A stretch of 39,374 nt of DNA. Source: an uncultured Pseudomonadota bacterium. Lineage in GTDB: Bacteria > Pseudomonadota > Gammaproteobacteria > Methylococcales > Methylomonadaceae. Of the stretch, positions 16,252 through 20,891 are shown piece by piece (the first letter of the stretch is position 1; every line of letters begins with the position of its first letter). The DNA is taken from the NCBI GenBank assembly GCA_903876445.1, contig CAIQZX010000140.1, positions 1 through 39,374 on the forward strand. Direction: 5' to 3'. The notes below the pieces were generated by a model. The model saw only the letters and a list, made by a program, of their open reading frames with translations. It was not told the DNA's origin and did no database searches. Position numbers and translations under genes: made by a program.

Positions 16252-16701
16252 CTAGGCTTTGCCGCCGTGCAAACGAATCAGCAAAGCCGCTTCGTCATAA
16301 CTTAAATCTGATTGACGCATTAACTCTGTTACACCAGCACCATCACGAATTTTACGAATATCAACATTGTAAGGATTATTTACAAAATCGCTTTGTTCTA
16401 ATTCACTGATTTTTTCAACAATATGCGTTAATTGCTGTTTTAACTCGTGTAATTGCTCATGCGTCATAGCAGTACTTTCATTCACCGTCAATGCGGCAGA
16501 ACATAACCCGTAAATATCATTTTTATTGCCATCGACAATTGTGGTTAAGTTAGCGCATTCTCGTTTCAACTGCAAAACGAAACGGTATAACCAAAATACG
16601 GCAAAAAATGTCACCACAAAAGCGATAGTTACAACACTAAAACCCATTAACACGAAACTTTCAGACACGTTCGTCAATGTGTTGGCTAGGGGCGGATTCA
16701 T
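16252..16701 (-). CDS. DUF2802 membrane-anchored coiled-coil protein of flagellar loci
   Basis: A 149-residue protein with one N-terminal membrane helix (about residues 18-42), a coiled-coil middle (about 45-105), and a C-terminal DUF2802 helix-turn segment (AGVTELMRQSDLSYDEAALLIRLHG). The closing part resembles a small DNA- or protein-binding helical motif. The family is typically found at the end of the flagellar/chemotaxis cluster (Pseudomonas: after cheW). Its function is not established. It follows the 57-residue small gene, which overlaps its start by 41 bases, and has its own AGGAAGAAAAGG ribosome site. It may be transcribed from the sigma-28-like promoter at 17015-17041. Confidence 0.85.
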   Translation of the reverse strand: MNPPLANTLTNVSESFVLMGFSVVTIAFVVTFFAVFWLYRFVLQLKRECANLTTIVDGNKNDIYGLCSAALTVNESTAMTHEQLHELKQQLTHIVEKISELEQSDFVNNPYNVDIRKIRDGAGVTELMRQSDLSYDEAALLIRLHGGKA

Positions 16702-16834
16702 CCTTTTCTTCCTCGTGTTCTTCTAATCTTGGATTATTTCTGTGTGGCTTGTCAGGCGTTCGATATTCATCTTTGTGAATTTTTTTCGCTTTAAAAACGG
16801 GAAAAGCGGCGGTAACGGCTGGAATTTCTAACAT
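16661..16834 (-). CDS. Small charged protein of 57 residues, flagellar-locus associated
   Basis: A short open frame starting MLEIPAVTAAFPVFKAKK and ending QHIDERV, with a good GGAG ribosome site 6 bases before the ATG. It is hydrophilic, rich in Lys, Glu, Arg and Pro, and probably disordered. I recall similar small proteins (hydrophobic IPxVxPVxPV-like head, charged middle, ...IDE tail) next to flagellar genes, but cannot verify this. It overlaps the DUF2802 start by 41 bases, so the two are likely coupled. No function is known to me. The start codon lies just after one arm of a 12-bp inverted repeat that includes the first base of the ribosome site. Confidence 0.65.
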   Translation of the reverse strand: MLEIPAVTAAFPVFKAKKIHKDEYRTPDKPHRNNPRLEEHEEEKDESAPSQHIDERV

Positions 16835-16843
16835 AATTTTCTC

Positions 16844-16929
16844 CGAATGACGCGCACTGAATCTTGTAACACGTCAAAGTTTCTTAACCGGTGTACGGGA
16901 ATATGACTTAATACTTAGCGCGTCATTCG
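16844..16929 (-). repeat. 12-bp inverted repeat in the leader of the 57-residue gene
   Basis: CGAATGACGCGC (16844-16855) and GCGCGTCATTCG (16918-16929) are perfect inverted copies separated by 62 bases. On the minus-strand RNA the second arm runs directly into the GGAG ribosome site, sharing its first G. A hairpin here could modulate translation of the small protein. It could alternatively be a protein-binding site or the ends of a tiny element. Confidence 0.75.
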
Positions 16930-16947
16930 TCGCCTGCACCATAACAT

Positions 16948-16965
16948 AAAAAAGCCTTATAAGGC
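16948..16965 (-). terminator. Weak terminator-like dyad with T-run
   Basis: The 12-base palindrome GCCTTATAAGGC (16954-16965) is followed on the minus strand by six T (16953-16948). Because the dyad needs a loop, the real stem is only 4 bp. It is a weak terminator at best, or an attenuator within the leader downstream of the sigma-28-like promoter. Confidence 0.35.
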
Positions 16966-17014
16966 GATAACGAATGTTAACTGACGATTTTAAAAGCGTC
17001 CTTTTTCGTTACTG

Positions 17015-17041
17015 TTATCGGCAATTGCATGACATTTTCCA
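17015..17041 (-). promoter_or_regulatory. Candidate sigma-28 (FliA) promoter
   Basis: On the minus strand GCCGATAA (17022-17015) is a perfect match to the sigma-28 -10 box. Exactly 11 bases upstream is TGGAAAAT (17041-17034), a poor match to the TAAAGTTT -35. The correct spacing plus the perfect -10 supports a FliA-dependent promoter for the 57-residue gene and DUF2802. The weak -35 keeps the call tentative. Confidence 0.5.
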
Positions 17042-17167
17042 TAACCGGTTACTCACAAATACAACGGATTATTAACAACCGTTTAATCTTAATCAATCGT
17101 GATTTATGTTCTGACAGAATAGCTTGGTTTTATTTATGCTATTTTTGTGTCACTAGAATATAAATCG

Positions 17168-17212
17168 AAAAGCGGGCGAGTTACCAAACAGAAGGTTAAT
17201 GTCCGCTTTTTT
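17168..17212 (-). terminator. Possible terminator after fliA
   Basis: AAAAGCGG (17168-17175) and CCGCTTTT (17203-17210) pair across about 27 bases that can themselves form a small inner TTACC/GGT(T)AA stem. T-runs lie on both sides. It starts 8 bases after the fliA stop. The large loop makes it imperfect. Confidence 0.4.
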
Positions 17213-17220
17213 GTTATAGC

Positions 17221-17952
17221 TTAATCATTGTTCAACCAGCCACTAAGTCGTGAACGTAACCGAATAACTGCTTGAGAGCTGATTTGGCTAACACGCGATT
17301 CGGTTAAATTCAAAATTTTACCAATTTCACGCAAGTTCAATTCTTCATCGTAATACAAAGAAATTATCAGTCGTTCCCGCTCAGGCAAACTCGCAATCGC
17401 ATTACTTAATGCTTTTTGAAATCCTTCACGAGTCACACTTTCTAGCGGTGCTTCGGTTACGCCCGAAGACTCCTCGAGGTAATTATCACCAGTTTGCGCC
17501 AATTCTTCAATACTGAACACGCGGCAATTACTTGAATCATGCAAAATATGATTGTATTCATCAAGTGTTATACCTAAGTGAGTAGCGACATCAACATCTT
17601 TTGCCGCTGCACCCGTTTGATTTTCAATCGTCCGAATTGCATCGCTAATAATTCGCGATTTTTTATAAACTGAACGGGGTACCCAATCACAACGACGAAC
17701 TTCATCAAGCATTGAACCACGAATACGAATTCCTGCGTAAGTATCAAAACTCGCGCCTTTGCTGGAATCATAATTTTTCATGGATTCGAGCAACCCCAAC
17801 ATTCCAGCTTGAATTAAATCATCAACCTGTACTGAATCTGGTAATTTGCTCAATAAATGGTAAGCGATACGCTTAACTAATGGTGCGTGCTGCATAATTT
17901 GCGCGTCAAGACCACCGATTTGAACGGAACTGTACATTGCTACTGCACTCAT
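17221..17952 (-). CDS. fliA: Flagellar sigma factor sigma-28 (FliA)
   Basis: A 243-residue sigma factor for late flagellar genes. Region 2 is at about residues 20-90 (DDLIQAGMLGLLESMKNYD, FDTYAGIRIRGSMLDEVR). Region 3 is at about 92-155 (CDWVPRSVYKKSRII ... LGITLDEYNHIL). Region 4 is at about 185-243 (LPERERLIISLYYDEELN, then the helix-turn-helix ending ESRVSQISSQAVIRLR). All regions are present and the length matches the family (about 240). The ATG overlaps the stop of the 83-residue upstream gene by 4 bases. A 23-base stretch of its region 3 (17542-17564) recurs exactly in that upstream gene. The anti-sigma gene flgM is not in the window. Confidence 0.96.
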   Translation of the reverse strand: MSAVAMYSSVQIGGLDAQIMQHAPLVKRIAYHLLSKLPDSVQVDDLIQAGMLGLLESMKNYDSSKGASFDTYAGIRIRGSMLDEVRRCDWVPRSVYKKSRIISDAIRTIENQTGAAAKDVDVATHLGITLDEYNHILHDSSNCRVFSIEELAQTGDNYLEESSGVTEAPLESVTREGFQKALSNAIASLPERERLIISLYYDEELNLREIGKILNLTESRVSQISSQAVIRLRSRLSGWLNND

Positions 17953-18200
17953 GCGACCTCCTGTTTTGAATTGAAGAGACGATATATATTGGCATCCTTC
18001 AAAATATGATTGTATTCATCAATACTGACACCCAAATAATCCGCAACGGCTTCGTTGGTAACGTAACCTTTCCGCTGCTCGACAACGCAAGCAGCGTGTC
18101 GAATGATATTGAGTTTTCTATCAATCAAACGCGGAAACATATCTAAAATTGGCGCGATTGGATTGTTAAATTCTTTTTCATACATAATTTGCGGGTTCAT
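17949..18200 (-). CDS. Orphan sigma-28 region-3-like small protein
   Basis: An 83-residue protein between fleN and fliA, joined to each by a 4-base ATGA overlap. Residues 29-76 align with FliA residues 98-146. Shared positions include Lys29, Ile32-Ile33, Ala36, Glu41, Gly45, Val52-Ala53, Leu56-Gly57, the identical block DEYNHIL at 61-67, Asp69, Arg74 and Phe76, about 20 identities with one gap. There is nothing like region 2 or region 4, so it cannot be a sigma factor by itself. The first 27 residues are unrelated. The DNA shares an exact 23-base run with fliA (18000-18022 against 17542-17564), suggesting partial duplication or gene conversion. A role as a FlgM decoy or FliA modulator is speculation. 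Confidence 0.85.
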   Translation of the reverse strand: MNPQIMYEKEFNNPIAPILDMFPRLIDRKLNIIRHAACVVEQRKGYVTNEAVADYLGVSIDEYNHILKDANIYRLFNSKQEVA

Positions 18201-19066
18201 GCTGTATCCTTTTGGACATATTTAACCATGCGTTCAATAAAAAATTCGATATAACCACCAGCCTGCATTTTCAATGGCCAGCTGTCTATTTTCGCTGCAA
18301 TAGATTTCATCGCTTGCGCGGATTTACTGCGTGGAAAACCCAAAACGACCGGCATTTGTTTTTGAACCGATTGGCGCAAATACTCATCATAAGGAACTGC
18401 ACCCGCAAATTGTAATGTCACATCTAAATAGTTATCTGTCACTTTGTTGAGCTTTTGAAACAAAGCCCTACCATGCTGAAGTGATTGCACCATGTTCGTA
18501 ATAACATGAAAACTGTTACAACCATAATCCCGATGCAACAATTTGATGAACGCATAAGCATCGGTCAACGAGGTGGGTTCATCACAAACTACAATAATAA
18601 TTTCTTGACAGGCTCTCGAAAAATTCACGACACCAGACGAAATCCCCGCTGCCGTATCAACAATCAAAACGTCAATCTGTTGATCAATTTCACTAAAAGC
18701 ACGAATTACAGCCGCTTGTTCAATTGTTGAAAGCTCTGTCATTTTTTGAATACCAGACGCGCCCGGAATCAATTTTAAACCTGACGGAGACGTTACCATA
18801 ATTTCATTTAGTGTTTTTTCACCCGCTAAAACGTGTGACAAATTGAACTTAGGATAAACACCGAGCAAAATATCGACATTAGCAAGTCCCATATCTGCGT
18901 CCATTAACACAACGCGCTGTCCCATTTGTACTAATGAAATCCCCACATTCACTGAAACATTGGTTTTACCTACACCGCCTTTACCACTTGCAACCGCAAT
19001 TACTCGAACTGGTTTGTTTTTGCTCATGCGGCGCATACCTGCTGCTTGATCTGGTTGTTTAAGCAT
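18197..19066 (-). CDS. fleN: Flagellar number regulator FleN/FlhG (MinD-like ATPase)
   Basis: A 289-residue ParA/MinD-family ATPase that limits flagellar number and counteracts FlhF and FleQ. The deviant Walker A is VASGKGGVGKTNVSVNVG, then DADMGLANVD, and VDTAAGI as switch II. The C-terminus has a probable amphipathic membrane-targeting helix (FFIERMVKYVQK). I chose the ATG at 19066 (MLKQPDQAAGMRRM) because it matches the usual DQAxGLRRL opening and overlaps the flhF stop by 8 bases. An upstream ATG at 19108 adds 14 residues without a good ribosome site. It ends in an ATGA overlap with the 83-residue gene. Confidence 0.94.
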   Translation of the reverse strand: MLKQPDQAAGMRRMSKNKPVRVIAVASGKGGVGKTNVSVNVGISLVQMGQRVVLMDADMGLANVDILLGVYPKFNLSHVLAGEKTLNEIMVTSPSGLKLIPGASGIQKMTELSTIEQAAVIRAFSEIDQQIDVLIVDTAAGISSGVVNFSRACQEIIIVVCDEPTSLTDAYAFIKLLHRDYGCNSFHVITNMVQSLQHGRALFQKLNKVTDNYLDVTLQFAGAVPYDEYLRQSVQKQMPVVLGFPRSKSAQAMKSIAAKIDSWPLKMQAGGYIEFFIERMVKYVQKDTA

Positions 19067-20891
19067 AACCTTGAGCCACCCATGCTTCGTTGTTTTCTTC
19101 GTCATCATCGTCGTCAGCCTCTAATTCTGCGACGCATTGTGCAATTAAATCTCTTGCACACGGATGACGCATATCTTCGGGGACTTGTTGACCATTGGTA
19201 ATAAATGATAATGCTAAATTGTGTTCAATTAACGAGGATAATGCAGAACCAATTGTTGCCGCTTCATCCAATTTTGTGAGAATAGCCGCCTGTGGTTTGA
19301 AAATATGAAACGCATCAATAATCTCGTTCATCGCCTTGTACTCCGTTGCCGCAGACATGACAAGATAAGACTTAATACTTAAATCATTTTCTTTCAACGT
19401 GTTAATTTGCTCAATCAACTTCATGTCGCGTTGACTCATACCTGCCGTATCAATCAAAATCAATTTTTTATCTGAAAAACCTTGAATTAACTGTTTTAAT
19501 TCTACCGCACTCGATGCAACTCGCACGGGAATGTTCAGTATTCGCCCATAAGTGTTTAACTGCTCGTGTGCAGCAATACGATAATTATCTGTAGTAATTA
19601 AAGAAACTTGATTTGGACCGTGTTTGAGTGTGAATTGCGCGGCAATTTTAGCCACACTGGTTGTTTTACCAACGCCGGTTGGTCCGACTAACGCCACAAT
19701 TCCACCCGTTTCAAGCAAATCATCTTCGGCAATAGGTAAGACTTTCGCCAATAACTCTTGAGCTTGCGTAAAAACAAAATCGAAATTGGTGTGATTAGCA
19801 AAACGGTTCGCAATTTTAATACTTAATTTTTTTGAAATACTCATCACCGCTAAACGATGTAGCAACTCGCTTCGAATAGGGGTTGAATTTGGATTATTTG
19901 TGTGACGTACCGCATAGTTAATGCGTGATAATTTAGTATCTAACGTTGTGTGTAATGACTTTAATTCTTGTGTCACTTCTAACAATAACTTTGCCGACGG
20001 ACTGTCTTTTTCTTGCACAACAGGCGAAGGAACAGGTTCAACTTTTGGCAGTTCATGTGCAACAGGAACATTATCTTGTTGCATCAAATCCGAAAACTTT
20101 AAATTTGCGGGAGCTGTGTAAGCCTCCTCTTGAATGGCTTCTTCCAAAAATTCGTCAAACTCATCAACGTAATCATCCGCATAATTTGTATCACTAAAAT
20201 TCCGACGTAAAGCGTGTGCTTCGTTAGCGACTTCTGCGCGAGTCTCACGGACATTCGGCATAATCGCTTCACGCTGTCGGGGCGGCTCTCGGTAAATCGG
20301 TTCACGTTGTCTTTCTACATCGGCATACATCGATTCGCGTTGCGGTAATTGATCGACATATTTATTAACGGGTGGCTGTGCAGGCTGTTTCTTTTTTGTT
20401 GGCACTTTAATCATCACGGACGGAACGGACGGTCTCGCCACAGAAGGTTGTTGTGGTTGTACTGCAGCAGATGGTTGTGAAAAATTATGTTTCACCGCAT
20501 CCGGATTTCCACGCAACTGAACTTTTTCCGCATAGCCAACATATTGATCAATACCGCGTTTTGCGCTGCTTGAACCAAAAACTTGATCTTCTTTTTTACG
20601 CGGACTACTAATAACATGCAAATTATTTCGCTCTGCTTGAAAATCGGGCAAATCGACTTTTTTAATTTGTTTCGTAGATTTAGATGGCTTGAAAAAATCT
20701 GGCGCAACGTCTCTGCCTTGGGCTGAAGTGTTAGAATGCACAGTTTGTTCATCAAAATCGCGAGCGGCAACAATTTCAACACCGCCTTCTACTTTACGAT
20801 TTGACATAATAACGGCATCCGCACCTAATTCGTCGCGTACCATCTGCATAGCTTGTCGTATATTCTCAGCAAAATAGCGTTTAATTTTCAT
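19059..20891 (-). CDS. flhF: Flagellar placement GTPase FlhF
   Basis: A 610-residue SRP-type GTPase that sets the site of polar flagellar assembly. The N-terminal B domain opens MKIKRYFAENIRQAMQMVRDE and GADAVIMSNRK. A long, low-complexity, charged and proline-rich linker follows (about 75-270). The NG domain occupies about 330-590, with G1 GPTGVGKTTSVAKI, LIDTAGMSQRD as G3 and TKLDEAA as G4. The protein is longer than most FlhF (roughly 400-500), and the extra length is in the linker. It ends in an acidic run and overlaps fleN by 8 bases. It lies downstream of flhA by 30 bases. Confidence 0.94.
   Translation of the reverse strand: MKIKRYFAENIRQAMQMVRDELGADAVIMSNRKVEGGVEIVAARDFDEQTVHSNTSAQGRDVAPDFFKPSKSTKQIKKVDLPDFQAERNNLHVISSPRKKEDQVFGSSSAKRGIDQYVGYAEKVQLRGNPDAVKHNFSQPSAAVQPQQPSVARPSVPSVMIKVPTKKKQPAQPPVNKYVDQLPQRESMYADVERQREPIYREPPRQREAIMPNVRETRAEVANEAHALRRNFSDTNYADDYVDEFDEFLEEAIQEEAYTAPANLKFSDLMQQDNVPVAHELPKVEPVPSPVVQEKDSPSAKLLLEVTQELKSLHTTLDTKLSRINYAVRHTNNPNSTPIRSELLHRLAVMSISKKLSIKIANRFANHTNFDFVFTQAQELLAKVLPIAEDDLLETGGIVALVGPTGVGKTTSVAKIAAQFTLKHGPNQVSLITTDNYRIAAHEQLNTYGRILNIPVRVASSAVELKQLIQGFSDKKLILIDTAGMSQRDMKLIEQINTLKENDLSIKSYLVMSAATEYKAMNEIIDAFHIFKPQAAILTKLDEAATIGSALSSLIEHNLALSFITNGQQVPEDMRHPCARDLIAQCVAELEADDDDDEENNEAWVAQGYA

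Follow-up and report, generated by a model that had tools for sequence, protein, structure and literature searches.

The window analysed here, the whole of a 39,374-nucleotide stretch of DNA from an uncultured gammaproteobacterium of the family Methylomonadaceae, carries fleN, fliA and, lodged between them, a small open reading frame here called S3 (Table 1). The name fleN is taken from the preliminary description of this DNA and from the position of the gene beside flhF and fliA. The genus to which the genome belongs probably consists of methane oxidisers, as inferred from the order name Methylococcales. The two ATGA overlaps reported for S3, one with fleN and one with fliA, are both present in the sequence at 4 nt each; the conclusion once drawn from them, a fixed ratio of the protein to FliA, goes too far, since the overlaps suggest coupled translation and specify no ratio.

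Table 1. Features at the fleN-S3-fliA locus, in window coordinates
Feature	Position	Strand	Evidence
S3, free-standing sigma-3 protein, 83 aa	17949..18200	(-)	ORF call, orthologues, purifying selection
Sigma-3 (region 3) domain of S3, residues 20-77	17970..18143	(-)	BLASTP, AF2 helices, Foldseek
N-terminus of S3, residues 1-19, variable, probably disordered	18144..18200	(-)	pLDDT, omega
Junction J1, ATGA: fleN stop / S3 start	18197..18200	(-)	Sequence
Junction J2, ATGA: S3 stop / fliA start	17949..17952	(-)	Sequence
AGGAGG, ribosome-binding-site-like, for fliA, within S3 3' end	17957..17962	(-)	Sequence
fleN, MinD/ParA-type ATPase	18197..19108	(-)	ORF and profile matches
fliA (sigma-28), complete, with regions 2, 3 and 4	17221..17952	(-)	NCBIfam PRK06986, E 2.4e-89; Pfam r2, r3, r4
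Region 3 of FliA, residues 89-147, segment homologous to S3	17512..17688	(-)	BLASTP

Relationship of S3 to sigma-28 region 3

The homology of S3 to region 3 of sigma-28 that was first noted by eye is borne out by BLASTP, by profiles and by fold matches. In a single BLASTP comparison with the FliA of the window, residues 20-77 of S3 align with residues 89-147 of FliA, with 23 of 59 positions identical and one gap (E 3e-12); the match is slightly longer than the one described at the outset (29-76 against 98-146, about 20 identities), and the DEYNHIL heptapeptide is indeed identical in the two proteins. The NCBIfam FliA model PRK06986 matches S3 over profile positions 88-147 (E 7e-5), and the Pfam model Sigma70_r3 (PF04539) matches the S3 of the window at E 0.001 with 19.6 bits, under its curated cut-off of 25.3 bits, and all nine orthologues at E <= 1, the best at 8.1e-5. 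A profile built from the nine S3 sequences in turn finds region 3 of FliA in other genomes of the family, with E-values down to 3e-16 per genome, and the sequence of the solved FliA structure (E 5.5e-6), and S3 thus has sequence-profile homology to known sigma region 3. Matches to sigma regions 2 and 4 were found with neither Pfam nor NCBIfam, in keeping with the description of S3 as a protein that lacks both, and without these regions S3 does not count as a sigma factor of the FliA/WhiG type.

Several lesser resemblances were set aside. The top match in the solved-structure searches, ranking above FliA, is 8vd6, annotated "CAP REPEAT" (E 1.7e-8 and 2.5e-6), and was discarded because it is built on five repeats of 20-28 residues, none of which is significant alone. 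The start of S3 (MN....YS) resembles that of FliA over a stretch too short to count. A run of 23 nt spanning most of the DEYNHIL codons is identical in fliA (17542-17564) and S3 (18000-18022), and is treated as chance because the identity of the two genes within a genome is not raised, which speaks against recent gene conversion (56% in G000; 52-65% over all pairs compared), and because an identical run of the same length is shared by the S3 of G007 and the fliA of G005.

An AlphaFold2 model of S3, made from the nine-row alignment, consists of three helices (residues 23-44, 49-56 and 60-82), with block-mean pLDDT values of 91, 90, 92 and 87 across residues 31-70 and values below 50 for residues 1-20. 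The structural likeness to sigma region 3, checked with this model, lies in the three-helix fold and in the identity of its best Foldseek matches: ranks 1-10 are all sigma factors, among them sigma-28 of P. aeruginosa, WhiG, Aquifex sigma-28 with FlgM and E. coli sigma-S, and chain C of 1l0o (SpoIIAB with sigma-F) follows at rank 14 (E 0.6). The chains of 1rp3 give TM scores of 0.63-0.69 normalised by query, and 9wsm_F superimposes over 49 columns at 1.0 A. The best E-value is 0.079, and none of the 490 Foldseek matches reaches 0.001. As these values are weak, and as region 3 was identified as the matched part of the targets from the sequence alignment, the fold match backs the sequence result and cannot stand alone.

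The residues of the domain show where S3 has departed from its relative. The second and third helices are conserved in S3, and the loop between helices 1 and 2 is one residue shorter. The Trp that precedes the PR motif in all 21 FliA rows is missing from all nine S3 proteins and the Asp before it from six of nine; the PR pair itself is kept in seven and replaced in G004 and G012. In E. coli sigma-28 the Arg of this motif reportedly contacts the extended -10 element. At two positions of helix 1 every S3 has Leu where every one of the 21 FliA rows has Ser, and at another helix-1 position all nine have Arg where the FliA rows have Ser or Thr. The two leucines could stabilise the isolated domain or form a new interface, and the S3-specific Leu and Arg residues are what one would expect if the domain had adapted to standing alone or to a new contact.

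Occurrence, selection and history of the junction

Orthologues of S3 with 79-83 codons occur in nine of the 18 genomes of the genus, window included, and in each of them the gene sits between fleN and fliA. Of 61 relatives searched, 43 lie outside the genus, and these hold frames of FliA size alone at E <= 0.01. The S3 profile matched 129 of 237 genomes of the family (29 genera), and no S3 was found in the 219 other family genomes; apart from the nine S3, the smallest matched frame has 175 codons (G065:C536) and the rest at least 242. Across the class (276 genomes, window included) there is no further S3 among the matches listed, all of which, the S3 of the window excepted, are frames of at least 227 codons. 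A scan of a collection of named genomes with a pattern from the single protein returned no relatives, and one with an alignment-based pattern returned 22 loci, namely eight S3 genes of the genus and 14 full-length FliA; both scans rest on short peptide patterns that can miss relatives. A pattern scan of IMG/VR and a tblastn search of plasmids found no relatives. All 18 genomes of the genus have the FlgM, flagellin and MotA/ExbB families, so that none of the three tracks S3; as FlgM is there with or without it, the FliA/FlgM switch probably does not depend on S3.

Selection on the core of S3 is strongly purifying and acts on the protein. A codon model with fixed topology was applied to seven of the nine sequences, omitting G012, whose S3 equals that of G004, and G015, nearly identical to G002. 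It gives an omega of 0.20 for S3 overall, 0.10 for the core (alignment columns 22-78; 2dlnL of 162 against omega = 1), 0.57 for the N-terminus (columns 1-21) and 0.28 for the last 13 columns, with 0.05 for FliA region 3 and 0.03 for FleN for comparison. By the NG86 method synonymous divergence is high, so that nine of the 21 S3 pairs are saturated, and the other 12 ratios lie at 0.07-0.28. The closest non-identical pair, G002 and G015, differs by three synonymous and no nonsynonymous codons in the core and by two synonymous and three nonsynonymous codons in the N-terminus. Together with the omegas these counts indicate that selection preserves the amino-acid sequence of the core and constrains the N-terminus far less. 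The frame is open in all nine orthologues, with 2-8 stops in each of the other frames in the seven tested. S3 is therefore maintained in relatives of the window genome, and the absence from all close relatives with signs of decay that would have spoken against the preliminary description is not what is seen.

In genomes from outside the genus the rule is a direct 4-nt overlap of fleN and fliA, seen in 24 of the 25 whose fetched loci hold both genes (20 of 21 in the family and four of four in the order; the locus of G040 is without fleN), the fliA starts being projected from the FliA of the window; three of these overlaps read GTGA in place of ATGA, and the exception, G024, has a gap of 6 nt. 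Nine of 14 further named loci have the same direct overlap, the largest gap is 70 nt, and none of the 14 has an S3-sized insert. Direct overlap is the ancestral state. Within the genus, nine junctions hold S3, four a 29-codon ORF (G006, G013, G014 and G016, at loci L020, L018, L016 and L019), four an ORF of 12-13 codons, and one, in G017, is a direct overlap. Each of the 17 inserts, from 12 to 83 codons, consists of one ORF that begins and ends in an ATGA overlap, and all 17 have GGAGG or GGGGG ahead of fliA at the place of the AGGAGG of the window. By eye, the start and end of the 29-codon ORF are more alike across its clade than the middle.

The insert probably arose by duplication of the fleN/fliA junction, to judge from the letters flanking it. 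In the 17 insert-bearing genomes, the 15 nt before fliA agree with the junction at the end of fleN at 7-12 positions, exceeding 9 in eight genomes and falling at 7 or 8, inside the control range, in six; 9 is the maximum of the controls, which average 4.6 for 62 other starts with a Shine-Dalgarno sequence and likewise stay at or below 9 when all 260 control starts taken from the stretches of the genus are counted. This result supports a duplication and does not prove it: the reference was picked with the data already in view, some of the control starts are orthologues of each other, and part of the likeness comes from selection for a ribosome-binding site. The ORFs of 12-29 codons in eight of the 18 genomes are probably reductions that keep translational coupling. 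That of G005, with 13 codons, ends in LNFKQGVA, which resembles the HNFKQEVA region at the S3 end in G004 and G012 and would be as expected of an internal deletion.

In a tree built from a concatenation of at most 11 genes from 21 genomes (13-21 genomes per gene), the 29-codon clade is sister to the rest of the genus, both with support 100. S3 is found in the basal G008 and scattered over the other subclades of that rest, and the genomes without it outside the 29-codon clade lie in three places. G009 groups with G002 and G015 (support 82), G005 with G017 (98), and G010 with G011 (100), the placement of the last pair beside G007 having support 58. If S3 was present in the ancestor of the clade without the 29-codon ORF, there were probably three reductions, and at least two. 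In a tree of region 3 the S3 sequences form one group, set apart by a long branch (0.92) and with a support of only 51, and the AU test accepts S3 inside the FliA of the genus, the FliA of the genus as a clade of its own, and the free tree (p 0.58, 0.44 and 0.44). The history suggested by these data, supported but not proven, is that a tandem duplication took in the fleN/fliA junction together with part of fliA, that region 2 would then have been deleted in frame from the first copy to leave S3, and that several lineages may later have shrunk the insert to a mini-ORF still passing ribosomes from fleN to fliA.

Possible roles of S3

S3 is a real, selected and lineage-specific paralogue of one FliA domain, sigma-3; the data show a protein homologous to region 3 of sigma-28 alone, overlapping both of its neighbours and optional in its genus. 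The reading we prefer, to which we give a probability of about one half, is that this paralogue, derived from a duplicated junction, tunes FliA activity in trans. S3 would be translated immediately ahead of FliA on a shared mRNA and would act on the sigma-28 circuit, its isolated sigma-3 fold competing for a surface that normally meets the sigma-3 of FliA itself. Candidate surfaces are FlgM, the sigma-2 and sigma-4 faces of FliA in its compact inactive state, and core polymerase, and competition for any of them could tune the amount of active FliA. Such action is plausible because in the sigma-28/FlgM complex, as described in PMC4598750, FlgM wraps around the outside of a compact unit made up of sigma-2, -3 and -4, and because a complex of sigma-F domain 3 with the anti-sigma factor SpoIIAB (1L0O) is tabulated in PMC4496699. 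The lack of S3 in nine of the 18 genomes and of any co-occurrence signal with FlgM counts against a modulator in trans; close relatives do without S3, for which reason it is proposed as an optional one. A more specific form of the proposal is tentative and carries clearly less weight: that a shed copy of sigma domain 3, co-translated with FliA, regulates its parent in trans by competing for FlgM or the compact off-state of FliA, so setting the threshold for late genes, and was lost at least two and probably three times in the genus with the coupling ORF kept.

A different partner is the rival that the region-3 tree and the helix-1 residues bring to mind, since a long branch and residues common to S3 and absent from FliA suggest that S3 has been freed from some of the constraints on FliA. 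The sigma-3 fold would then have been recruited for something outside the sigma-28 circuit, such as FleN, FlhF or another regulator, and the place in the operon would mean co-expression only, which agrees with a FlgM presence that does not track S3; the retained fold, with its second and third helices, and the unvarying position next to fliA in nine of nine genomes argue the other way, and we regard this as unlikely, if worth keeping in mind. The PR motif raises the further idea of a DNA-binding modulator that would place its region-3.0 helix on the extended -10 element of sigma-28 promoters and compete with or help the holoenzyme. Its Arg survives in seven of the nine orthologues, but the loss of the Trp from all nine and of the Asp from six, the replacement of PR in G004 and G012, and the small DNA interface that an isolated sigma-3 would offer make such a role distinctly improbable.

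The remaining explanations deny the peptide a function. S3 might be a mere translational coupler, an inert spacer, translated by ribosomes leaving fleN, whose use is to place a strong ribosome-binding site ahead of fliA, and the 17 inserts of one doubly overlapping ORF with GGAGG or GGGGG before fliA, whatever their length, fit this well where the mini-ORFs are concerned. A coupler would not conserve a fold, however, and since omega is 0.10 in the core but 0.57 in the N-terminus of this ORF, pure coupling accounts for the mini-ORFs and not for S3, for which we consider it a poor candidate. That half of the sampled genomes of the genus lack S3 and have shorter ORFs in its place could also point to a decaying, functionless fragment of a fliA duplication. 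The selection test largely refutes this: the core omega is low, all nine orthologues are open where the other frames contain stops, and with DNA identities to fliA of no more than 52-65% decay would have had time to show, which leaves the idea with hardly any credibility.

Compared with sigma-3 of FliA, S3 is alike in sequence and in its predicted fold, and differs in having neither regions 2 and 4 nor the Trp before PR, mostly no Asp, a helix 1-2 loop shorter by a residue and helix-1 residues of its own. SigO and RsoA of Bacillus subtilis together make one sigma factor, and SpoIIAB is the kinase anti-sigma factor of sigma-F. The domain table of PMC10141391 distributes the regions of SigO-RsoA over two proteins, one of them small, as here; a division of sigma regions between proteins is in that respect already known, whereas a lone extra copy of sigma-3 beside its parent differs from it, the FliA of the window having its own r2, r3 and r4 by Pfam, so that the locus does not encode a two-part sigma factor. 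Domain 3 of sigma-F in its complex with SpoIIAB (1l0o; entry in PMC4496699) indicates that a sigma-3 domain can be a docking surface for an anti-sigma factor, although sigma-F, unlike S3, is a complete sigma factor and the anti-sigma factor available here is FlgM. FlgM is itself a small modulator in the FliA circuit, as S3 would be if it acts as proposed, but S3 has no Pfam FlgM match and FlgM is a separate gene in all 18 genomes of the genus. A narrow literature search, scant on subscription journals, found neither a sigma-3-only protein nor coupling at fleN-fliA, in agreement with the earlier remark that no protein of this kind was described.

Sigma domains are usually studied within one chain, and S3 is a free copy of domain 3 whose fold is kept under selection; it offers a natural test of what sigma-3 does alone in the FliA/FlgM switch and may tune flagellar gene expression. 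The genus supplies a built-in comparison between genomes with S3, with a mini-ORF alone and, in one case, with a direct overlap, and in the mini-ORFs translational coupling has probably outlasted the protein that once carried it.

Genes downstream of fliA

A MotA/ExbB-family match adjoins fliA in seven relatives (G001, G002, G003, G007, G008, G009 and G017). The corresponding 519 bases of the window (16702-17220) hold no listed ORF of 60 aa, except that a 66-aa ORF of the opposite strand ends there, and in G004 a motA-like fragment of 71 codons (L011:2529-2744) was all that was seen. Elsewhere, all 18 genomes of the genus carry other genes of the MotA/ExbB family. Further downstream, positions 16252-16701 encode a protein of 149 residues with a putative DUF2802-like domain, of a type present at other flagellar loci. 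It is matched in 19 of the 21 compared genomes, window included, with 42-48% identity in the three genomes outside the genus.
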